Positions 2,566 to 39,678 of a stretch of DNA of 39,678 bases are shown in pieces. Source of the stretch: a virus. Location of the stretch: the IMG/VR virus record IMGVR_UViG_3300009285_011135, positions 1 through 39,678 of that record. One strand, 5' to 3'. Position 1 is the first letter of the stretch; every line of letters starts with the position of its first letter. The notes under the pieces are model-generated. The model saw only the letters and a program-made list of their open reading frames with translations. It ran no database searches and was not told where the DNA came from. Position numbers and translations under genes: made by a program.

Positions 2566-3276
2566 ATGCCCAACTATGACATCCGGCTCTGCCCACATTT
2601 TCCCTACCACCCGAAGCTCCGGAAGCTGCAGGCGAGACTTGGCATCCGCACCCGATATTACCTCGAAGACCTCTGGCTGGCCGTCAGAGTATCTAAACCC
2701 GATGGCCTCCTCTCCAATTGGTCCGAGCAGATGGTGGCAGACGCAGCCGGTTTCAGGCCCTCGAAGCGGTGCCCCACGGCATCGGACTTCATCCGCATCT
2801 TGCTCGAGGAGCGCTGGCTCGATCGAATTGGCGGTGTCCTGGCCTGCCATGAATGGTCCGAGCATCAGCCCTATGCTGCCGGGATTGCCCGGCGCACGGC
2901 AGAACTTGGAGCGCCTAATGGTGCAGAACCGGAACCCAGGCGTCAACAGAGATCATCCCCAAAATCGCCACGACAGGCCTCGGAGTCGGATGGGCAGGGT
3001 TCGGGTCGCCCCACAGCCCCGCCAAACCCTGGCGCCTCCATCGCCCAGTCCGGCCCCGAGCCTGTCGAGTACTCCGTGCAGATGGTCCGCTCGCTCCTGG
3101 AGGGCGTGGATTTCCGGGCGCCGGACGCTGACCGCCAGGTCCGCACCCGGGTCAACTGCATCGAGCCGCTCCGCCGTCATCTCGACCAGGCGCTGGCAAA
3201 TCTGGCGGAAACGCAGGTTGACGACCCGCTCGAGGCCATCGCCGGGGAACTGACCCGGCTTGCAAGTGAGAAGTGA
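2566..3276 (+). CDS. Replication-initiator-like phage protein
   Basis: A 236-residue protein. The first 100 residues (DIRLCPHFPYHPKLRKLQ, then RYYLEDLWLAVRVSKPDGLL, AGFRP, and LLEERWLDRIGGVLACHEW) resemble the N-terminal winged-helix of phage replisome-organiser proteins: a small domain that asks whether a residue set is present at the start of replication proteins of temperate phages. A low-complexity linker rich in Pro, Ser, Gln and Arg (about 115-160) leads to a helical C-terminus that may bind a helicase loader (inference). Its place right after the Cro-like gene fits a replication role. No ATPase motif is present. Assignment is by layout and weak resemblance only. Confidence 0.45.
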   Translation: MPNYDIRLCPHFPYHPKLRKLQARLGIRTRYYLEDLWLAVRVSKPDGLLSNWSEQMVADAAGFRPSKRCPTASDFIRILLEERWLDRIGGVLACHEWSEHQPYAAGIARRTAELGAPNGAEPEPRRQQRSSPKSPRQASESDGQGSGRPTAPPNPGASIAQSGPEPVEYSVQMVRSLLEGVDFRAPDADRQVRTRVNCIEPLRRHLDQALANLAETQVDDPLEAIAGELTRLASEK

Positions 3277-8710: not shown

Positions 8711-8758
8711 GCAAGGACGCAAGGAATAATCTTTCTGTTTGCGCCTTGGCGTCCTTGC
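8711..8758 (+). terminator. Long hairpin from GCAAGGACGCAAGG repeats
   Basis: GCAAGGACGCAAGG (8711-8724) pairs with CCTTGGCGTCCTTGC (8744-8758) with one bulged base and a 19-base loop. GTTTTGTCTAATTTT follows. It could end or attenuate the early operon upstream of the ASCH gene, or be a host-type repeat. The ASCH start at 8785 lies just downstream. Confidence 0.5.
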
Positions 8759-9575: not shown

Positions 9576-9616
9576 GCGAGTCTGATCGGTCAGATCGGTC
9601 TGACCGGTCTGATTTG
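9576..9616. repeat. Octamer repeat array at the convergent junction
   Basis: Five to six copies of TCGGTCTGA/TCGGTCAGA-type units between the ends of the early and late operons. TCAGA-TCGG-TCTGA can fold as a short hairpin in either direction. It also encodes the C-terminal residues QIRPVRPI of the small minus-strand gene. Confidence 0.7.
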
Positions 9617-10057: not shown

Positions 10058-10696
10058 TTACGGTTCGATCTCAAAGTCTATCGTCCACTCGATCCGGACG
10101 GCCAGATTCGCATCGAACTCAGGGCTCCAGACCTCTGCCCAGACACTGTAGGCATCGGATGGAGCGTAATAGGTGATATCATCACTAGGGATCACCGTCT
10201 CCGCAGCGATATAGCCCCAATTGCCGCCCTGCCCCCAGTTATCACTCTGGACGGAGCCGATCATCCCATAGTTTTTCAGGTTTCCGCCCTCGGTGAAATT
10301 CCACCCGGGGCCATGGCAACCGGTCAATCCGCAGACCTTGAGCTTGGCGCCAACGGCCGTAATCGTGGCTCCGACCGGCATCGACTGCGAGACACATGCC
10401 ATCTTTTCGTAGTTGTCCGCCACGAGATCGAAGCAGTAGACCGTCTCATAGACGATCTGGCTTGCGGCTGGTTCGCCCCCGCCGCTCTGCCTAAAAAAAA
10501 ACCACAGGTTGCCGCGCTCGTCGATCCCGCCGGGGTACCGCAAATCCAACGTCGCCGTTGTGAGCAGATTCAATTCCTGGACCCCGGTCAGACCCGCCTT
10601 GATCACGTTCCCATCCGCATCCACGAGATCGCAGGTATAGAGTCCCGCCCCCTCGTGGACGGTTGGCTTGAAGCGCATCAGGTTATCTGGATTCAC
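10058..10696 (-). CDS. Phage virion-associated protein, unknown
   Basis: A 212-residue protein from the GTG at 10694-10696, which has AAGGAGG eight bases upstream; an earlier frame opening at 10720 lacks this. Beta-rich and aromatic with Gly-rich loops (DNWGQGGNWGYIAAE, YYAPSDAYSVWAEVW), and near the end VRIEWTIDFEIEP. No family recognised; its place behind the hub-like protein suggests a distal tail protein. A T9 run on the coding strand (10493-10501) encodes Phe-Phe-Phe: a -1 slip there would end translation at once, so it is a possible slippage or sequencing-sensitive site. Confidence 0.6.
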   Translation of the reverse strand: MNPDNLMRFKPTVHEGAGLYTCDLVDADGNVIKAGLTGVQELNLLTTATLDLRYPGGIDERGNLWFFFRQSGGGEPAASQIVYETVYCFDLVADNYEKMACVSQSMPVGATITAVGAKLKVCGLTGCHGPGWNFTEGGNLKNYGMIGSVQSDNWGQGGNWGYIAAETVIPSDDITYYAPSDAYSVWAEVWSPEFDANLAVRIEWTIDFEIEP

Positions 10697-10722
10697 GGGA
10701 CGATCCTCCTTATGCCACAATG

Positions 10723-14813: not shown

Positions 14814-15631
14814 GACGGAAGCTCCGGGCAAAACAGCAGACGATCCCATCGCGCCGGGTCGTATTCGAGCAATTCAACGTACACGGATCCGCCAGGTCTA
14901 CCTGCGCCGCTGCGGCAGGCAGGCATCCCGAGATATTTGGAAAAGAGAGCCAGCGCTTCTGTTTCCGACCGCGCGGCTCCGATGTGGGAGAACCTATCCC
15001 AATTCGGTTGCTGTTCGACCCCGCGGAACTGTTGCAGGGGCGCGAGGGGCCAGCGGACGCGCCACGAGCCGGCCACGTTGAGGCGTTGCCACGGCCAGCG
15101 GAAGAACTCCTGGATGGCCCGCTTCACGCCGGGCATGGCGGAGTCGTGTCCCGCGAAAATATGGCCCGGGTCGACCTTCGAGGCCCAAGCGGCGAGGTCG
15201 GCTGCCACGGCATCATACGTGTGATCGCCGTCGATGAAGACGCCATCGAGACTCGCGTCATCGAAGAGCTTGGCAGCCACCACGGAATTCATCCGCATCG
15301 GCAGAATCTTCTTTTCGAATCCGGCCTCCCGGACGTTGCGCATGAACACCTCGAACGGATCGATCCCCTGGGACCGCAACAAATTGAACTGGGTATCGAC
15401 CTGGGTATCGTTTCCTGAGCCGGCCCAGTTATCCACCGCATAGATTCTCGTCTTCTTGCCGAGGAGCTTGAGCCGTTCCGCGAGATAGATGATCGAGCGG
15501 CCGTAGAGTACTCCCACCTCGACGATGCTGCCATTGTTGCCGGCCTCCTCGGCCATCTGGTCGTAGATGCTCTCCCAGTTGAACCAGCCTGGGATTTTGA
15601 GGTAGAGACTGGGCTGTTCATCGAATTTCAT
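14810..15631 (-). CDS. Class I SAM-dependent methyltransferase
   Basis: A 273-residue protein from the ATG at 15629-15631, with GGAGG about eight bases upstream; the reading frame stays open further up but without conservation. SAM motif I is SIVEVGVLYGRSIIYLAERL, then TRIYAVDNWAGSG (acidic end of the second strand) and GVFIDGDHTYDAVAADLAAW, the Methyltransf_24-type motif, and HIFAGHDSAMPGVKRAI. Such enzymes O-methylate sugars or small molecules. The segment PACRSGAGRPGG near residue 245 is encoded by a CCTGCC...GGCAGG repeat inserted in frame. Overlaps both flanking genes by a few bases. Confidence 0.8.
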   Translation of the reverse strand: MKFDEQPSLYLKIPGWFNWESIYDQMAEEAGNNGSIVEVGVLYGRSIIYLAERLKLLGKKTRIYAVDNWAGSGNDTQVDTQFNLLRSQGIDPFEVFMRNVREAGFEKKILPMRMNSVVAAKLFDDASLDGVFIDGDHTYDAVAADLAAWASKVDPGHIFAGHDSAMPGVKRAIQEFFRWPWQRLNVAGSWRVRWPLAPLQQFRGVEQQPNWDRFSHIGAARSETEALALFSKYLGMPACRSGAGRPGGSVYVELLEYDPARWDRLLFCPELPS

Positions 15632-18158
15632 CGAGGCGCCTCCGGAGGAAAATCTGGAACGCGTACGGGTCGAGGTCGATGATCTGCCACCCCTGGTTCT
15701 GGTAGATGAACTGGTCCACTGCGAGTTTAGCGCCCGGGCACTCCGGCCGGCCGTAGTCGTCGATGGCAATGATGCCGCCGGGGGACATGCGGGGAGCGAA
15801 GTAGGCGAGTTCGTGGCGGATCGTCTCCTCGGTATCGGTATCGAGGACGGCGAACGAGTAAGCACGCTCCTCGGTGGTCCCGGGCTTGATGGTCTCGAAT
15901 ACATCGCCCTGGACGGGCACGATGGGGAGGCGGCTGGCGTAGGACTGCAGGTCTGCGAGGGCGTTGTAAGGTGGCCGATATTTGCCGGCCTTGGTGGCGG
16001 CGCCCGGCGTCGGATCATCCTTGGCGAATCCACTGAACGTGTCGAAGGCCCAGACCTTTTTGGGCTGACCGTTGACCAGCGTGGCCATGCGGAGCGCGGT
16101 CCCGCCCAGATAGCAGCCCACCTCGGCCACGTCCCCGGGGATTTTCATGGTTTCGCGGAAGCGGCGTACCAGGAACGGCATCCAGGCATTGGCTGGCACG
16201 TGCTCGATATCGATCGGGAATTCAGGATCAGACGGATTAGCCGGATCGGTCGGATTTGTCGGCGAAATCCACCGCCGCCGCCGCATGTCCTCAATGATGC
16301 TCGCCGCGGTACAGCGCCCATAAACGAGCGGGATGTAACTCTCACGCTCGTAGACGTATGGTGGCATCATATTTCGCTTCATCCGCTCCGAGAACGAGAC
16401 CAGACGCCTCGGGTGGATCGAATCGCCATAGGCGCGCTGCCACATGACGGCAGGGACTCCGAGCCAGCACGAGAAGATGCTGATCCCGGCGGGGTAGCCG
16501 ATGATCGCCTTGGCCGCCTGGCAGACCGCGAATGCCTCGTGAACGGTCGTCGTGCCGACCAGGTTTATCACACGGCTCTCGAATGATGATAGGCGATCTA
16601 TGAGCCGGCCGGCGTACGTCATGTCCTGATCCCAGTTGGCGCCGACCAGAATCACGTTCAGACCGTACTCGTGGACCAGGCTGCGGGCAAGGAGGACCCA
16701 ATCGTCGATGCGCCAGTAGCTCCCGCGGTTTTGGCCCTCGCCCTCCATGCCCATGTTCCCGGCGTCGGGGCCGGGATAGAACACCACGTAGGGCGTTTGG
16801 TTCCGCATACTCTCCCGCAGTTTTTCGCCCGACGGGCCGAGCTTCCAGCGCTGTGCGATATCCCAGTCGGTCGGGATATCCGGCAGCCATTCATCGAGGG
16901 TTTGGCCGCGCTCCAGAGCTCCGTTGGCACAGAGCCAGTAGTCATAGCCGAGGACGTTCCGACCGGAGTCCACGTAATTGTACGAGCCATCCTCGTTCAC
17001 TTGAGGCTCGTCCGGCCGCGTGATTTGCATCCGTCCGAAGCGGACTTCATCCACGAAATCGAAGGCCTCGAGAAATTCCTGAGACCGATTCATCGCTCCG
17101 CAATCCTGGACTACGACCACGATTTTGGCATTGGGATACTGTGCGCGGATCGCGGGCACTTTCACCATCGACCAGAGCGAATCGCCGATGCCTGGCGGAA
17201 CCGCGATGGTGACTGTGGCCGGCGGGATGGCCCTGGATCGGTCTGATCCGTCTGATCGGTCCGATCGGGCTGATTGGGCTGGCAACGTTACTGGCCTCAG
17301 CGACTGCGCCTTCAGCGCGGTATAGCGCCCCAAGCCCATGCGCGGATCGGTCAGGATCGAATCCGGGTAGTGCCCGCCGTAAACGCACTGGGTCGGGATG
17401 CGGAGCGCGATCCCGAGCATCTGGGCGTAACAGGGCGGAGTGAGGATAGCATCCGCAGCCGCATATAGCCCGAGCAACTCCTCGATGCCCATCTCGCCCC
17501 GCTCCGGCACACTGATGCGCTGGTCCGCGAGCCGTTCGACCTCATCAAAGCCCGGGGCCAGCGTCTCGATCTCCGGTTCCTCCCGGCTGAACATGATGAG
17601 CGTGTAGCCCTCGTCCGCCAGCGCTTTGGCTGCCACCGCGTATTTGGACGGCTCCGGGAGCCGATCAGGTATCTCTGCCCCCATCAGAATCGTGGGGAGT
17701 TGGATTACCGCATACGTGCGCTCGGTGTTTCTTTTGAACCAGGTATGCCCCGCGGCCCTCAGGTACGGCGGCAGCAGGAGTCCGAAATCCGTCACCGGAA
17801 ACGGTGCGCCAAAGAGTTTTTCCCAGTGCCTGACCAGCCGCCCGTAAAACGATTCATTGGGATCGCCCAAGGCCCTGGGCTTCAGATCGATGATCGTCGT
17901 TTCCCCGTTAATGGGCCGCGGCGAGAAATAGAGTTGCGGGCACTGCTCGACGTTCCGCTCCGCGAGCGGCAGACCATGGCCCGCCGGAATGAGGTACCGC
18001 AGCGCAGGCCATCGCCAGAGATGGACCTGCGGATAGCACGTCTCCAGGTAGACCTGCCCCGGCCACTGTTCGGCCGCGCGGCCCGCGAACGGGCTGACCA
18101 GAATGTTATCGCCCAAGCCCTGGAGACAGCGGATGATGAGTGATTTGCGGATAGCCAT
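15618..18158 (-). CDS. Fusion: two GT9 (heptosyltransferase-like) domains plus TylF-like methyltransferase
   Basis: An 846-residue protein from the ATG at 18156-18158; the frame upstream is repeat-derived. Domain 1 (about 1-290): SLIIRCLQGLGDNILVSPFA, then YTLIMFSREEPE and GLYAAADAILTPPCYAQMLG, a GT-B heptosyltransferase-like fold. Domain 2 (about 310-630): VTIAVPPGIGDSLWSMVKVP, YVVFYPGPDAGN, NLVGTTTVHEAFAVCQAAKA and IIGYPAGISIFSCWLGVPAV, the same fold again. Domain 3 (about 650-846): GDVAEVGCYLGGTALRMATL, VWAFDTFSGFAKD and AVLDTDTEETIRHELAYF with IIAIDDYG, a TylF/macrocin O-methyltransferase-like enzyme. The linkers ARSDRSDGSDRSR (293-308) and PTNPTDPANPSDP (633-645) come from one octamer repeat family. 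It may build and methylate a glycan. Confidence 0.85.
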   Translation of the reverse strand: MAIRKSLIIRCLQGLGDNILVSPFAGRAAEQWPGQVYLETCYPQVHLWRWPALRYLIPAGHGLPLAERNVEQCPQLYFSPRPINGETTIIDLKPRALGDPNESFYGRLVRHWEKLFGAPFPVTDFGLLLPPYLRAAGHTWFKRNTERTYAVIQLPTILMGAEIPDRLPEPSKYAVAAKALADEGYTLIMFSREEPEIETLAPGFDEVERLADQRISVPERGEMGIEELLGLYAAADAILTPPCYAQMLGIALRIPTQCVYGGHYPDSILTDPRMGLGRYTALKAQSLRPVTLPAQSARSDRSDGSDRSRAIPPATVTIAVPPGIGDSLWSMVKVPAIRAQYPNAKIVVVVQDCGAMNRSQEFLEAFDFVDEVRFGRMQITRPDEPQVNEDGSYNYVDSGRNVLGYDYWLCANGALERGQTLDEWLPDIPTDWDIAQRWKLGPSGEKLRESMRNQTPYVVFYPGPDAGNMGMEGEGQNRGSYWRIDDWVLLARSLVHEYGLNVILVGANWDQDMTYAGRLIDRLSSFESRVINLVGTTTVHEAFAVCQAAKAIIGYPAGISIFSCWLGVPAVMWQRAYGDSIHPRRLVSFSERMKRNMMPPYVYERESYIPLVYGRCTAASIIEDMRRRRWISPTNPTDPANPSDPEFPIDIEHVPANAWMPFLVRRFRETMKIPGDVAEVGCYLGGTALRMATLVNGQPKKVWAFDTFSGFAKDDPTPGAATKAGKYRPPYNALADLQSYASRLPIVPVQGDVFETIKPGTTEERAYSFAVLDTDTEETIRHELAYFAPRMSPGGIIAIDDYGRPECPGAKLAVDQFIYQNQGWQIIDLDPYAFQIFLRRRLDEIR
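16226..16262. repeat. Octamer repeat encoding the second linker of the GT9-GT9-methyltransferase fusion
   Basis: GATCAGACGGATTAGCCGGA-type units translated on the minus strand as PTNPTDPANPSDP. Confidence 0.7.
17236..17282. repeat. Octamer repeat encoding the first linker of the fusion
   Basis: Six or so units of GATCGGTCT/GATCCGTCT/GATCGGTCC type, translated as ARSDRSDGSDRSR. The unit is the same family as in the second linker but read in a different register. Confidence 0.75.
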
Positions 18159-18212
18159 GGTGAAGAGTGAACAGTGAAGAGTGAATCCGCCTGCGGCGGA
18201 AACAGTGAACAG
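18159..18212. repeat. GTGAACAGT array with CCGCC hairpin forming a gene leader
   Basis: On the coding (minus) strand: CTGTTCACTG, then the perfect TCCGCC-GCA-GGCGGA hairpin, then TTCACTCTTCACTGTTCACT units, directly abutting the ATG of the fusion gene. No purine-rich ribosome-binding site is visible. A near-identical leader precedes the ATG at 29588. Confidence 0.8.
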
Positions 18213-18213
18213 A

Positions 18214-19302
18214 TCAGACGGTATTGATGGTTGCCACGTTTGCGATCGGGACTGCGTTGATGGCTGCGATGTCCGCTGCGGGGACCCCGCAGACACTTGC
18301 GAAATTCCCCGAATAGAAGTTCCACAGCGTGTTGTTGCCTGAATCCGTGGATTCCGTCGCCGTGAATGGTGCGCTCGCCCCCGCCGCAGTGGAGTCCATC
18401 ACGTCCACGTCCGTGATGGCAATCGCACCATCAGAGCTGAGCGTCCAGGCAACCCCGTCCGTTGTGCTCCGGAGGAGGTGCTGGCCCGAGGTCGCCGAAG
18501 TCGTAATAGGTCCGACGCTTCTCGTTATTACTCCCTCGCCGAATTTAATCGTCTTGGCCGCGCCCGAAATGGTGAGAGATGCGAACGTTGGCGCATCCGC
18601 GATGGTCAGGAGGTTCCCTGTCCCTGCGCCCTGGATGGTCACTGCGCCGAATTCCTCGCCGTTCGAATCGAACGTCACGGACTGCGAGCTCGCTGACAGG
18701 TAGATGCTGAGGCTCGCGGTCTGGTGATTGAGTGTCCCGGAATCGATATCCGGGGCGGCATTCACGATCTGCCAGGTCCCTGAACCCATGTTCACGGTTC
18801 CGCCATCCAGAAGGAACTGATTGCAGTTCATGACCGAGTGCGTGCCCGCGGAGAACGTGCCCGAGGTGATCCACAGCTTGAACGCGGTCAGGTTGTCGCC
18901 AAGCGTGACGACCGAGGTGACATCGTTCACGCGGAACCGCACGAACCCATTGCCTGACGTTCCCCCGAGGTCGAGGGTCCCGGTCCCGATGATTGCGAGG
19001 GTGCCGCTGCCATCGAAATCAGCAATGGCCGAGCCAAAGGTGATATTCCCATAGACCGTCAAAGTGGAATTCAGGGTGATGAACGTGCTCGCTATGATGC
19101 CAGCATTCCATGACATGGAATCGCACTCTGCCGGTACACCGATCAAGACCTGTTGATTGGTGAGCGAGAATGAATTCGTGCTGAAATAGACGTCATCCGC
19201 CAGTGTGGGCACGGAAGCTCCGGACGGCCCGCCATCGGATTCGCTCCATTTGGTGGTCGAGTTCCAGTTCCCACCGTTTCCGACCCAGTAACGCGCGGCC
19301 AT
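18214..19302 (-). CDS. Beta-helix tail fibre-like protein
   Basis: A 362-residue protein. The start, MAARYWVGNGGNWNSTTKW, with LADDVYFSTN, resembles the leading segment of phage and adhesin beta-solenoid proteins. The body is a run of short strands with Gly-Thr-Leu repeats (FDGSGTLAIIGTGTLDLGGT, FLLDGGTVNMGSGTWQIVN), as in right-handed beta-helices. The C-terminus ADIAAINAVPIANVATINTV is a well-known type of phage-fibre ending. Overall a receptor-binding or glycan-binding tail appendage is likely. It lies directly upstream of the glycan cassette and directly downstream of another fibre gene (one base gap). Confidence 0.7.
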   Translation of the reverse strand: MAARYWVGNGGNWNSTTKWSESDGGPSGASVPTLADDVYFSTNSFSLTNQQVLIGVPAECDSMSWNAGIIASTFITLNSTLTVYGNITFGSAIADFDGSGTLAIIGTGTLDLGGTSGNGFVRFRVNDVTSVVTLGDNLTAFKLWITSGTFSAGTHSVMNCNQFLLDGGTVNMGSGTWQIVNAAPDIDSGTLNHQTASLSIYLSASSQSVTFDSNGEEFGAVTIQGAGTGNLLTIADAPTFASLTISGAAKTIKFGEGVITRSVGPITTSATSGQHLLRSTTDGVAWTLSSDGAIAITDVDVMDSTAAGASAPFTATESTDSGNNTLWNFYSGNFASVCGVPAADIAAINAVPIANVATINTV

Positions 19303-24390: not shown

Positions 24391-24795
24391 TCAGCTTGCG
24401 AACAACCCCGTCCACACGGCCCGTACAACCCACAGGCCGCTCCCGTAGGCGCTGGAGACCTGCCCCTTTAGCTTCGGCGAGCCATCAGGGAAACGGACAT
24501 CGAGCAACTGGAGGTTACTCCAGGTGACATTTCCGGATGTGACCAGACTGGCGAGTGTCCCGGTGTAGGCCGTCAGGAGCTGGGGATACGTCGTCAGGAT
24601 CAGTGTTTTTGCGGCGTCTTCGGTGGCGGCCCGTTCCCACGTCAGTATCTGGAACGGTTCCGCGTGGGCCGCCTGTTGGGTGGCCCAATTGCCGTCGCAA
24701 CCGGCCCGGCGTGCGATGGCCAGATCAGCCTGCAGCGGAGTGGGCGAGAATTGGATGATCGAAAAACTATGGCCGGCGAGCGTTGGCTGGCTCAA
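24391..24795 (-). CDS. Small tail protein, unknown
   Basis: A 134-residue protein whose ATG overlaps the end of the tape-measure gene by four bases. Strand and helix pattern: QPTLAGHSFSIIQFSPTPLQ, TLILTTYPQLLTAYTGTLAS, NVTWSNLQLLDVRFPDGSPK, ending in GSGLWVVRAVWTGLFAS. It has the size and place of a distal-tail or tail-completion protein after the tape measure. No family recognised. Confidence 0.6.
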   Translation of the reverse strand: MSQPTLAGHSFSIIQFSPTPLQADLAIARRAGCDGNWATQQAAHAEPFQILTWERAATEDAAKTLILTTYPQLLTAYTGTLASLVTSGNVTWSNLQLLDVRFPDGSPKLKGQVSSAYGSGLWVVRAVWTGLFAS

Positions 24796-26183
24796 TGTGC
24801 GGCCTCCGTGAGTCGGCTGTTGAGCGCCTTCATTTCGTCCAGGATATCGGAGAGGATTTTGGGCGAGTCGGCCGCCCCGATGCCCGTCTCTGACCGATAT
24901 CGGGCGATATCGGCCTCGGTGTATCCGGGCCGCGTTTGGCGGAGAGCGGTTTCAGGCCCCGCGCCGAGCGCCATCGAGAGCTTCAATTCCTTCTCCCTGA
25001 GTCCCACGAGGAGCTCGTCCAGCCCGCCCCGCTTTTCCTCTGCGGTGCGCAGCCATCGGGTAGTCAATTCGCCCTCCATGCCGGCGATCTCGTCGGTCCG
25101 TTTTGCGCGTTCGAGCTGCACGTCCATCGCTTGCATCTGAAGTTGACGCCGGAATTCAGGGTCAGCGGCAAATTGGGCCTGGCGCTGGACAAATACGTTC
25201 CCGCTCTCCCCGGCCCTGATCTGCTGTTCGATGTCCCTGGGTTGCGCGGCCATCAGCGCCCGGATGGAATCGGACTGGGTTTTGAAAACGGTCTCTATGA
25301 GCGCCGAATCGCGTTCGAGCATGGCCAGGCGCCGTTCTGGGCCGGCCTCGGCAAAGCGCCTCAACGCCTCCGGGGCGCGGCGCTCCGGCTCGACCTTCTC
25401 CGTCAGTTTCTGGAAGAGGCTCGATGCGCCTTCGGCCGCGCCCGTCGCCTTCAGGCTCGCCAGGACGAAGGCCATGCCGGTCTCGACCTCGCCGCCCCCG
25501 GCGGTGAACTCAGCGACGGCCTTCCTGCCGCCGCGCTCGAATTTGGTGCCGAACTTGCCGGTGAGTTCTCCGGTAATGGTGGCCAGGTCGGCCAGGTCGC
25601 CGACGGTTTTTTTGGCGTCCAATTTTGACATGGTCCCGAGCAGGCCGGCGAACTTTTCGAGTTCCGGGGCAGTGAGGATTCCCGCGGCCGGCGCGGTTTT
25701 CATGACGTCAAACAGTTCTTGGATTCTCTCGATGCCTGCATCCGGGAGCTCGCCGCGGAGGCCCCGGTACGCGCCGACCGCGGCCTCTTCGGTCATGAGC
25801 GGCCCCTTGCGGAATCGGAGCATTTGGCGGACCTCTCTGGAGATGGGCATATCGCCGGCCCCGAGGATCGCGGCGCGGATGTCATCCTGGATTTTAATCG
25901 AGTGCTTGGCGGCCTCGTCCATCTCGGCGATCGCCTGGCTGATTAGGTATCGGATCCCGCTGACCGCGGCGCCGACGGTGGCGAATCCCACGACCATGCT
26001 CCGGGCCTGGCTCATCACCGATGCGCCGAGGTTCTGGAACGAGGATCGGGTCTTTTCGGTCTCCCTGCCGATTTTGCTGATCCCGCCTTCGATCTCAGAT
26101 TCCTTCCGGATGATCGAATCGTAGTCCTGGAGCAACTTCGCCGCTTTGGATGACATGACGACTGAGACGTTTCCACCGGCCAT
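24792..26183 (-). CDS. Tape-measure protein
   Basis: A 463-residue protein, short for a tape measure. It has an N-terminal helical region (LLQDYDSIIRKESEIEGGIS), a hydrophobic stretch MVVGFATVGAAVSGIRYLIS near residues 62-82, long helical segments (GMAFVLASLKATGAAEGASS, MLERDSALIETVFKTQSDSI) and a helix-rich C-terminus. Placed after the tail tube and chaperone-like genes, it fits the role that sets tail length. At a helix rise of 1.5 angstrom per residue, 463 residues predict a tail of about 70 nm. Its ATG overlaps the stop of the preceding gene. Confidence 0.7.
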   Translation of the reverse strand: MAGGNVSVVMSSKAAKLLQDYDSIIRKESEIEGGISKIGRETEKTRSSFQNLGASVMSQARSMVVGFATVGAAVSGIRYLISQAIAEMDEAAKHSIKIQDDIRAAILGAGDMPISREVRQMLRFRKGPLMTEEAAVGAYRGLRGELPDAGIERIQELFDVMKTAPAAGILTAPELEKFAGLLGTMSKLDAKKTVGDLADLATITGELTGKFGTKFERGGRKAVAEFTAGGGEVETGMAFVLASLKATGAAEGASSLFQKLTEKVEPERRAPEALRRFAEAGPERRLAMLERDSALIETVFKTQSDSIRALMAAQPRDIEQQIRAGESGNVFVQRQAQFAADPEFRRQLQMQAMDVQLERAKRTDEIAGMEGELTTRWLRTAEEKRGGLDELLVGLREKELKLSMALGAGPETALRQTRPGYTEADIARYRSETGIGAADSPKILSDILDEMKALNSRLTEAAH

Positions 26184-26794
26184 TAGAGCAGCTCCATGGT
26201 GAGAGTGGTGTTCTCGACCCGCAGAGTCTCGGTGATCGCGTGCTCGATGAACTTAACGAGTTCTTCGATCTCGGCTGAATTAAACGCGCTGAGCATGGCG
26301 CGGAAGGTTTCTTTGGCCGTCTCGCTGTAGCCGACACGCCATTGCCTGGGGTCATTTGCTCCGAATTTCTTTCGCGCCTGGGGCCGTCCGAAATACATCC
26401 GGCCGACGACTCGATTGGCACTGCCGCTGATGGCGATGCGGCCCAACACGTTCTGCCTCAGATTCCCGGAGGCGATCAATGGGAATCGCTTTGGCTTGAG
26501 TTCCATCGGCGGCTGGCTGGGAGGGTCCTTCAGGCGCGCGCGGGCTTCCCGTTGCGCTGCGCGCCGCCACGCGGCATACAGCCGGTAATAGACGAGCGAG
26601 TACCGGGAGTAGCCCTCGGCGGTGAAATGGATGGGAACGATCTCACGGTGCCAGTAGGCCATCATTGCCTGGAGCGCCGCCTTCTCCGCCTCCCGCAGAG
26701 CCTGCCTGCCCGCGGCGCCCTTGAGCCCGAATTGCCGCGGCTTCAGGCCGCTCAGGTACCGCAGAATCTCATTTTTCGGGATGGTCTTGGCCAT
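26183..26794 (-). CDS. Unknown phage protein between chaperone and tape measure
   Basis: A 203-residue protein, helical and very basic. ILRYLSGLKPRQFGLKGAAG, EAEKAALQAMMAYWHREIVP, RYSLVYYRLYAAWRRAAQRE, SGNLRQNVLGRIAISGSANR and LVKFIEHAITETLRVENTTL are the main segments. RMYFGRPQARKKFG gives an HK97-gp10-like feel, but no family is established. It could be a tail-completion or minor tail protein. Its start is separated from the chaperone-like gene by repeats and a short hairpin, with no strong ribosome-binding site. Confidence 0.55.
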   Translation of the reverse strand: MAKTIPKNEILRYLSGLKPRQFGLKGAAGRQALREAEKAALQAMMAYWHREIVPIHFTAEGYSRYSLVYYRLYAAWRRAAQREARARLKDPPSQPPMELKPKRFPLIASGNLRQNVLGRIAISGSANRVVGRMYFGRPQARKKFGANDPRQWRVGYSETAKETFRAMLSAFNSAEIEELVKFIEHAITETLRVENTTLTMELL

Positions 26795-26887: not shown

Positions 26888-26984
26888 CTATCCGGTCATC
26901 ATCACGTCCGCCCACGTGGGCAGATATCCATCAGCCTGACCGGCTATCCAGAGCCGGTGGATTGAGTCGCCTCCTTTTTTTTTT
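26888..26984 (-). other. Probable -1 frameshift site and extension in the tail-chaperone-like gene
   Basis: On the coding strand GAC GAA AAA AAA AAG G contains A10 (26975-26984). A -1 shift there replaces the zero-frame ending (EATQSTGSG) with a 28-residue tail GGDSIHRLWIAGQADGYL then PTWADVMMTG, stopping at 26888-26890. The tail reads like a real protein sequence. A missing or extra base in the homopolymer is the alternative explanation. Confidence 0.6.
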
Positions 26985-27717
26985 CGTCAAGGATAATCTG
27001 GCGGAGACGCGGGAAATCGAGGGCGGCCTCGATGATGCCCCACTCCGGACTCGGGCGCTCGAGGGGCCGGACTGCGATGTTCGCCTCGTTCAGCAGCCCC
27101 AGGGCGCTGCAGTCGAATGCGCCGAGCCGGTAATTCCAGCCGAGCGCCTGCGCGGCCAGGTCGAACCAATCGCGGTCCGTGGGGATAGGTGCATCCGTGG
27201 CCCGAGTCCCGAAGACGATCTCGCCGATGGCAAAGACCTTCTCGGAGAATGCGCGGAACCGCGGCATGGGCTGATAGATGACATTCCCATCACGATCGAG
27301 GGAGAGCGTCCGCGGGAATTTCCGGGCGCACGGGACGTGCCAGCGATTGCCGTCGGCCAGGAGCACGTCGTAGCCCTCTAGGATGCCGTGGCGCAGAAGC
27401 TCCGCCGGGCGGGGTGGCGAATCACTCCGCCACCCCACCCAGAGCGGAGAACCCCGATGCGCAAACTGTGTCCAGGTCTCCGCGCCGAAATCGGCGCAGT
27501 CGATCTGATAGGGATAATCGGGATCGTCGGGCCTACGATGGGTGGCGCAGAATCCGGCGAGCCCGTCGGGGCCGCGGGTGACGCCGCGGTAATGGGTTTC
27601 GAGGGCGAAGCCCAGTGCCTGTGCCGTTGCGGCAGACAGGCCGATGGGGGCGCCCTTTAGGGCCGCCAGGGCGGCCCCCTGCGTGGCTGCGGCGGGGATG
27701 TAGTAGATGAGGTCCAT
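26944..27717 (-). CDS. Tail-assembly-chaperone-like protein with frameshift
   Basis: A 257-residue protein in zero frame; about 276 residues if -1 shifted at the A10. N-terminal IYYIPAAATQGAALAALKGA, then YPYQIDCADFGAETW, GYDVLLADGNRWHVPCARKF, FAIGEIVFGTRA and FDLAAQALGWNYRLGAFDCS, ending LRQIILDEKKK. It lies between the major tail protein and the tape measure, the lambda G/GT position, where a frameshifted chaperone is conserved in many long-tailed phages. The family is not recognised by sequence, so the chaperone role rests on position plus the A10. The leader is a GTAAACAGT repeat with no clear ribosome-binding site. Confidence 0.6.
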   Translation of the reverse strand: MDLIYYIPAAATQGAALAALKGAPIGLSAATAQALGFALETHYRGVTRGPDGLAGFCATHRRPDDPDYPYQIDCADFGAETWTQFAHRGSPLWVGWRSDSPPRPAELLRHGILEGYDVLLADGNRWHVPCARKFPRTLSLDRDGNVIYQPMPRFRAFSEKVFAIGEIVFGTRATDAPIPTDRDWFDLAAQALGWNYRLGAFDCSALGLLNEANIAVRPLERPSPEWGIIEAALDFPRLRQIILDEKKKEATQSTGSG

Positions 27718-27738: not shown

Positions 27739-27769
27739 AACAGTAAACAGTAAACAGTAAACAGTTAGG
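27739..27769. repeat. GTAAACAGT repeats upstream of the chaperone-like gene
   Basis: Four TAAACAGT units fill the gap between the tail-tube stop and the chaperone-like start. On the coding strand ACTGTTTACTGTTTACTGTT precedes TCCTATCCGTCTACCCCG and the ATG. No Shine-Dalgarno is seen. Confidence 0.7.
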
Positions 27770-28670
27770 GCAAGGCCGAGTCAGCGATCTGAATGAAATC
27801 GTTCGTACTCTTGCGGATCTGGGCGTAGCCGACGGCCATCGTCTGGCGGCCGAGGTTCAGGGTCCGGAAGTGAAACATGCCAGCCTCAATGGTCAGTTTT
27901 TTCGAATCCGCACTGGCGGAGAACCTGGCGCCAGGCGCGGCCTTGGCTAAATAGACCAATACGTTCGAGGTGACGTTCACCGCGTCCAGACCGAGCGTGG
28001 CAAGCACATCCATATCTCGACATGAGAATTGGAGAAATGGCTCGGACTGCTCGATGCTGGCCCACTCCGGCAAATTGGCGTCTCCGTATACGACGTCGGA
28101 CTGGTGCCCGAATCCGATGCGGGCATCAACGACCCATGGAACCTCCGTCCCGTTCACGCTGATGTAATTCCGCTTCCACGCCTGGGCCGCGCCGAGCGTC
28201 GCGGGCAGGGCGACGTTCGAGTTGAGAACCACAATATTGTTGGAGCCGTCATGGCTGGCCTGGCACTCGGCGGACATGGTGACCGGTCCCTGTCCCGGGA
28301 TGACCAAATCCACGGGATAGAGTACTCCGGCCGCGATGACGAGGTTTTTGTGAACGCTCCCCGTGGCGTAGCCGGTGCGGTCCTTTTTCGCGAGGTATGC
28401 GGTCAGGCCGGTATCACCGGAGCCAGTATCGATCGCGATTCCCTTGACGCCGATGTTCGTCAACATCGTCGCCACGTCGGTGGACCGGAAATTGAGGGTG
28501 GGACGCTGGGCATCCTCGGAGACCCATTGGGGACCGAGGTCGGTATCCCCTCGCACGAGCATCGCTTGGATTCCCTTATCGAGCGTGCCGTCCTGGATGC
28601 CGGCAATCGTGATGCCCTCGACCGTGGTCGTATCGATCAGGACTCCCCCGACCCCATAAACGGTAGCCAT
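27765..28670 (-). CDS. Major tail (tube) protein
   Basis: A 301-residue protein with GAGGGG before the ATG at 28668-28670. It is beta-rich with an ordered fold: MATVYGVGGVLIDTTTVEG, TIAGIQDGTLDKGIQAMLVR, LNFRSTDVATMLTNIGVKGI, and AWKRNYISVNGTEVPWVVDA with GFGHQSDVVYGDANLPEWA and EAGMFHFRTLNLGRQTMAVG. Size and place, directly before the chaperone-like and tape-measure genes, match a long-tailed phage tube protein. No family name is claimed beyond that. Confidence 0.65.
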   Translation of the reverse strand: MATVYGVGGVLIDTTTVEGITIAGIQDGTLDKGIQAMLVRGDTDLGPQWVSEDAQRPTLNFRSTDVATMLTNIGVKGIAIDTGSGDTGLTAYLAKKDRTGYATGSVHKNLVIAAGVLYPVDLVIPGQGPVTMSAECQASHDGSNNIVVLNSNVALPATLGAAQAWKRNYISVNGTEVPWVVDARIGFGHQSDVVYGDANLPEWASIEQSEPFLQFSCRDMDVLATLGLDAVNVTSNVLVYLAKAAPGARFSASADSKKLTIEAGMFHFRTLNLGRQTMAVGYAQIRKSTNDFIQIADSALP

Positions 28671-39595: not shown

Positions 39596-39678
39596 CGGGA
39601 CACTCGCGTCAGTTCATCGCCGCATGTTGGACATATTTTGGTGAAAAAAAAAACACTTTTACACCGAAACCAAATACC

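Follow-up and report, generated by a model that had tools for sequence, protein, structure and literature searches.

Probable -1 recoding on a conserved A10 run in a candidate tail-assembly chaperone gene of two distant phages

The tail genes G and T of phage lambda are joined by a -1 frameshift, which takes place at the sequence G_GGA_AAG. Frameshifting of this kind is widely conserved among long-tailed phages, even though the ORFs concerned show low similarity; the tape measure is coated by gpG, and the rare gpGT uses its T part to bind the tail shaft protein (PMC5009743). Slippery heptamers made of As differ in their efficiency: in E. coli A_AAA_AAG is much more shift-prone than A_AAA_AAC and A_AAA_AAA (PMC5009743).

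Here we analyze a gene in the IMG/VR record IMGVR_UViG_3300009285_011135, the whole of which (39,678 bp, 61% GC) is called the window in the following. A sequence-only reading of this DNA had suggested a frameshift like that of lambda G/GT at this place. The position of the gene, its A10 run and a conserved extension in the -1 frame all support this suggestion, with the chaperone function as the inferred part. We consider it highly likely that a tail-chaperone-type gene undergoes programmed -1 recoding here, and a -1 slip on the A10 run very probably provides the phage with two forms of a protein that helps to build the tail.

The gene, its neighbors and its two reading frames

The head module of the window lies on the minus strand and is lambda-like; it includes a GpA-type terminase, a lambda-type portal, a major head protein and a head-tail attachment protein. 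It is followed by a 163-aa gene, the 301-aa putative tail tube, the frameshift gene, a 203-aa gene and the 463-aa tape-measure candidate (Table 1). The labels tube and tape measure are based on this order, on the duplication in the tube and on the hydrophobic segment of the tape-measure candidate, not on family matches; a convincing Pfam or PHROG family was found neither for the frameshift gene nor for its tail neighbors. The gene had been described as standing between tail tube and tape measure. This slot is confirmed, with the amendment that one more gene precedes the tape-measure candidate.

Table 1. Positions in the window of the frameshift gene, its shift site and the adjacent tail genes.
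Feature	Position	Strand	Basis or remark
Tape-measure candidate (463 aa)	24792..26183	-	position; one hydrophobic segment near residues 63-81
203-aa gene separating the frameshift gene from the tape-measure candidate	26183..26794	-	likely homolog in the relative (blastp E 9e-4)
-1 frame extension, 28 codons + TAG: GGDSIHRLWIAGQADGYLPTWADVMMTG	26888..26974	-	homology to the relative's -1 extension; codon usage
Predicted hairpin 3' of the shift site	26920..26962	-	weak, z -1.2 to -1.8 by stretch folded; not conserved
Zero-frame product (257 aa, P0001), candidate tail assembly chaperone in G-like position	26944..27717	-	ORF; homolog P0002
In-phase slippery heptamer A_AAA_AAG (relative: A_AAA_AAC)	26974..26980	-	formed by the last two Lys codons
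A10 run, shift site, uninterrupted	26975..26984	-	same length and phase in the relative
In-phase heptamer A_AAA_AAA within A10, common to the relative	26977..26983	-	codon layout GAA AAA AAA AAG
TGA in the -1 frame, two bases 5' of the A-run	26987..26989	-	the extension frame cannot be entered earlier or independently
Upstream gene, putative tail tube (301 aa), internal duplication	27765..28670	-	position and duplication, without family match; relative has a homolog in the same order

On the coding strand the shift site reads ...GAC GAA AAA AAA AAG GAG GCG... The zero frame terminates nine codons past the run with EATQSTGSG and a stop, while the -1 frame stays open up to the TAG at 26890-26888, so that the shifted product has 276 aa. 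The uninterrupted A10 and the 28 additional residues of the sequence-only reading are hence present. Its description of the site as a homopolymer in place of the usual heptamer does not hold, because the A10G sequence contains A_AAA_AAG, and also A_AAA_AAA, in the phase of the zero frame. Runs of this length are rarely expected in such DNA. When the 39.7-kb window was simulated 300 times with a first-order Markov model, an A/T run of at least 10 came up in only 2 simulations; the real window has two, namely the shift-site A10 and an intergenic A10 at 39644. The latter (39644-39653) is located upstream of the terminase genes. Another long run, at 10493-10501, is an A9 of the plus strand inside the minus-strand ORF 10058-10720, where it is a coding T9 and the frame stays open.

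The -1 frame opens at coding-strand index 731 and the A-run starts at 733. The TGA two bases before the run means that, in the window, the extension can be entered only within or right beside the run. Upstream of the run the -1 frame contains no start codon in either phage; the extension is therefore reachable only via a shift and joined to the upstream protein, and an independent translation start of the extension is ruled out.

The codon usage of the window extension is phage-like, with a log-odds score of +5.8, which corresponds to the 18th percentile of the in-frame range. At most 0.16% of the stop-free out-of-frame windows on the same strand reach this value. Since 12% of the stop-free antisense windows score that high, codon usage serves as a supporting point only.

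Two further observations concern the surroundings of the tail genes. An 892-aa ORF at 15618-18296 has domain matches to TylF/methyltransferase and to family 9 glycosyltransferase, which is unusual near a phage tail module. The window also contains families of short interspersed repeats, mostly in intergenic gaps (GTGAACAGTGAACAG..., GATCGGTCTGATCGG... and CGTCTTTGCGTCCTTGCG...), with starts, family by family, at 3270, 4062, 18157, 27733 and 29580; at 9580, 17232 and 31115; and at 8739, 22494 and 26854. One repeat stands directly after the -1 stop codon of the frameshift gene. These repeats look like host-type intergenic repeats and might be host identifiers. A search for a host with the repeat pattern gave no viral contig and only one Bacteroidales MAG of 44% GC with nothing useful; a search of 198 genomes from the phylum of that MAG was empty.

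A distant relative with the same site

A scan with an alignment of TerL (terminase) produced 80 distant loci, in which the tail genes of the window were used as tblastn queries. One record, IMGVR_UViG_3300031565_000215 (locus L096), matched with homologs of the tube and of the frameshift gene. The comparison of conservation is thus one of two sequences, the window and this distant relative. Single-protein scans of viral contigs with the frameshift gene, MCP, tube, portal or TerL resulted in no relatives, and the same is true for a scan of genome contigs with the frameshift gene. There was also no tblastn match of P0001 and P0002 in 50,697 phage genomes, of P0002 in plasmids or, again in phage genomes, of the relative's extension alone. 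The alignment of P0001 and P0002, used for a further scan, returned the same relative and nothing else.

The homologous gene P0002 (L096:2175-2957) is 31.7% identical to P0001 over 189 aa (E 1e-19). Its sequence GAG CAA AAA AAA AAC AGC contains exactly A10 in the phase of the window, with A_AAA_AAC as the final heptamer. The relative's record has 32,148 bp and 64.6% GC, and this A10 is its sole A/T run longer than 7. Behind the run the -1 frame encodes QRPNDHPRWLQFQRWITGRLTGYWPTMTDLTWESEI, which is homologous to the window extension. The core of the two extensions, WIAGQADGYLPTWADV versus WITGRLTGYWPTMTDL, aligns with a local score of 49. This score was equalled by 3 of 50,000 residue shuffles and by none of 20,000 nucleotide shuffles; the eight other frame pairs of the extensions give scores of 12-36. 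The view that the extension looks like genuine protein is borne out by its codon usage and by this homolog, and the proposed comparison with relatives indicates conservation, in the -1 frame and behind an A10, in the one relative found.

The order of genes in the relative is tube, frameshift gene and tape-measure candidate without an intervening gene, and the stop codon of the -1 frame (3005-3007) lies immediately next to the GTG (3009) of the tape-measure candidate. The putative tube directly precedes the frameshift gene in both phages. The tape-measure candidate of the window has a weak full-length similarity to the 474-aa gene that adjoins the relative's chaperone gene (score 86, equalled in 0 of 300 shuffles). 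A local change in gene order is seen for a likely homologous gene of 169-203 aa, which follows the frameshift gene in the window (26183-26794) and stands before the tube in the relative (L096:731-1240). Both putative tube proteins are built as an internal tandem duplication (27765-28670; L096:1237-2157); in a comparison of N half and C half within each phage, 0 of 1000 shuffles scored as high. The tail tube protein pb6 of T5 also has a duplicated domain and forms trimeric pseudo-hexameric rings (PMC5717097); the putative tubes of both phages resemble it in being internally duplicated.

P0001 and P0002 had no match in Pfam and PHROGs apart from a single hit (E 0.04) to a PHROG without known function, and profile comparison with hhalign gave no match to the chaperones annotated in phiSHP3 and Lsp-JY19. 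AlphaFold predictions from two-row alignments reached a pLDDT of 35 for the frameshift protein and 29 for the tube, which makes them unusable. By sequence, the gene shows no match to a described chaperone family. Because ORFs of this type share low similarity, the missing family match does not exclude a chaperone function. The gene occupies the slot of lambda G/GT between putative tube and tape-measure candidate, and it has a slippery site near the 3' end and a conserved extension in the other frame. By position and anatomy it appears to be a tail-assembly chaperone of the lambda G/GT type. Events of this kind are well known; for the protein family and its conserved pure-A10 site, no description turned up in the searched libraries and papers.

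The role as a chaperone is inferred, as are both products and the ratio between them. The bulk of expression would stop in the zero frame and yield the 257-aa G-like protein, and a fraction would slip by -1 within the A10 to produce the 276-aa protein, which ends in a small and conserved domain rich in W and G. If the scheme of lambda G/GT applies, the part shared by both products would serve to coat the tape-measure protein, and recruitment of tail-tube subunits would fall to the rare extended form. The rate of slipping would set the ratio of short to extended form.

Which machine slips, and other explanations

The -1 slip on the A10 could be made by the ribosome or by RNA polymerase, which would transcribe A10 as A11. 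Both are compatible with the sequence at the site: an in-phase heptamer of the form X_XXY_YYZ exists in the window (A_AAA_AAG) and in the relative (A_AAA_AAC), and the A10 of both phages exceeds the length of about 8-9 A/T at the frame transition that is associated with transcriptional slippage. We consider it possible, with the balance leaning the other way, that RNA polymerase slippage acts alone, without any ribosomal shift; this would differ from our main reading in the machine only. Consistent with such slippage, the run stays at A10 in both phages while a heptamer requires only 6-7 As, and 9A runs are known as transcriptional slippage sites (PMC1088944). The base after the run differs, with G in the window and C in the relative, so that the last heptamer of the relative is the less shift-prone A_AAA_AAC. 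Conserved stimulators were not found either. The weak hairpin predicted 3' of the site in the window has no equivalent in the relative, where z is 0 to -0.5, and the 30 nt upstream of the shift site showed no SD-like sequence. Neither a 3' structure nor a 5' SD-like sequence is a strict requirement for a -1 frameshift.

The in-phase A_AAA_AAA and A_AAA_AAN in both phages make ribosomal slippage equally available, and the characterized tail-chaperone shifts in the literature consulted are described as ribosomal (PMC5009743). No tail-chaperone shift ascribed to transcriptional slippage was found in open-access titles and abstract openings, which is weak evidence. The kept A10 length, the relative's A_AAA_AAC and the lack of conserved stimulators lead us to favor the view that transcriptional slippage has at least a share in the shift. 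The chances that it is a major contributor are roughly even. That RNA polymerase slippage on the conserved A10 is the main determinant of the chaperone ratio, in an undescribed family with a very short extension domain, is a tentative proposal which we hold to be somewhat less probable than its opposite.

An assembly or sequencing indel would be a trivial explanation for the two frames. Homopolymers are prone to error, and the two sequences come from a metagenome-derived record (the relative) and an IMG/VR record (the window). The sequence-only reading had expected the -1 frame to become continuous if the true run were A9 or A11. This is correct for A11 and would also apply to A8, but A9 opens the +1 frame with RRLNPPALDSRSG before a stop. 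An indel is nonetheless improbable. Exactly A10, with the extension in the same -1 frame, is found in separate records whose proteins are about 32% identical, and an identical error would be needed twice at one site.

Even less probable is that the A10 is a tract for phase variation, in which replication slippage toggles the C-terminus within the population. Long homopolymers are hypermutable, and phase variation by homopolymers is known (PMC3711429). A structural-module gene beside the tail tube is, however, expected to require constant expression, and a switching tract should show mixed lengths, whereas length and phase are identical in both phages. Least probable of all is a chance origin, with a gene that consists of the zero frame alone and an open -1 stretch without meaning: an open stretch of 28 codons is not long by itself, but chance would have to account for the relative's homologous extension with its shuffle statistics, for the codon usage and for an A10 kept in the same phase.

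Comparison with known frameshift systems

With programmed -1 recoding as the preferred reading, the tail genes with a conserved -1 shift gain a family without detectable sequence relatives. Annotators could join both reading frames in cases where neighbor genes escape recognition by homology. The locus also offers a natural test case for whether transcriptional slippage can be a means by which phages set the chaperone ratio; the case is clean because an uninterrupted A10 is kept in two distant GC-rich phages.

The gene resembles lambda G/GT in the -1 shift near the 3' end, in the slot between tube and tape measure and in the short and C-terminally extended proteins. It differs in the A10 as shift site, in an extension of 28-36 aa and in a zero-frame protein of about 250 aa in the two phages, in the extra gene before the tape-measure candidate of the window and in the lack of a match to described chaperone families. 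Lambda gpG, with about 140 aa, is smaller than this zero-frame protein. Stenotrophomonas phage phiSHP3 has orf39/orf39', annotated as gpG/gpGT, in the same slot between orf38 and the tape measure. Its major capsid protein is related to that of the window, but orf39/orf39' have no detectable similarity to P0001/P0002. The A_AAA_AAG sites for -1 ribosomal frameshifting in E. coli dnaX and in IS elements have a heptamer identical to the in-phase one of the window; here the upstream SD-like sequence is missing, the hairpin is weak and not conserved, and the run exceeds the heptamer. Thermus thermophilus dnaX (A9) and the 9A runs of bacterial IS elements share with the present site an uninterrupted stretch of at least nine As within coding sequence of a GC-rich genome. 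Slippage has been demonstrated experimentally in those systems, whereas the A10 described here is known from sequence and stands alongside in-phase ribosomal heptamers.
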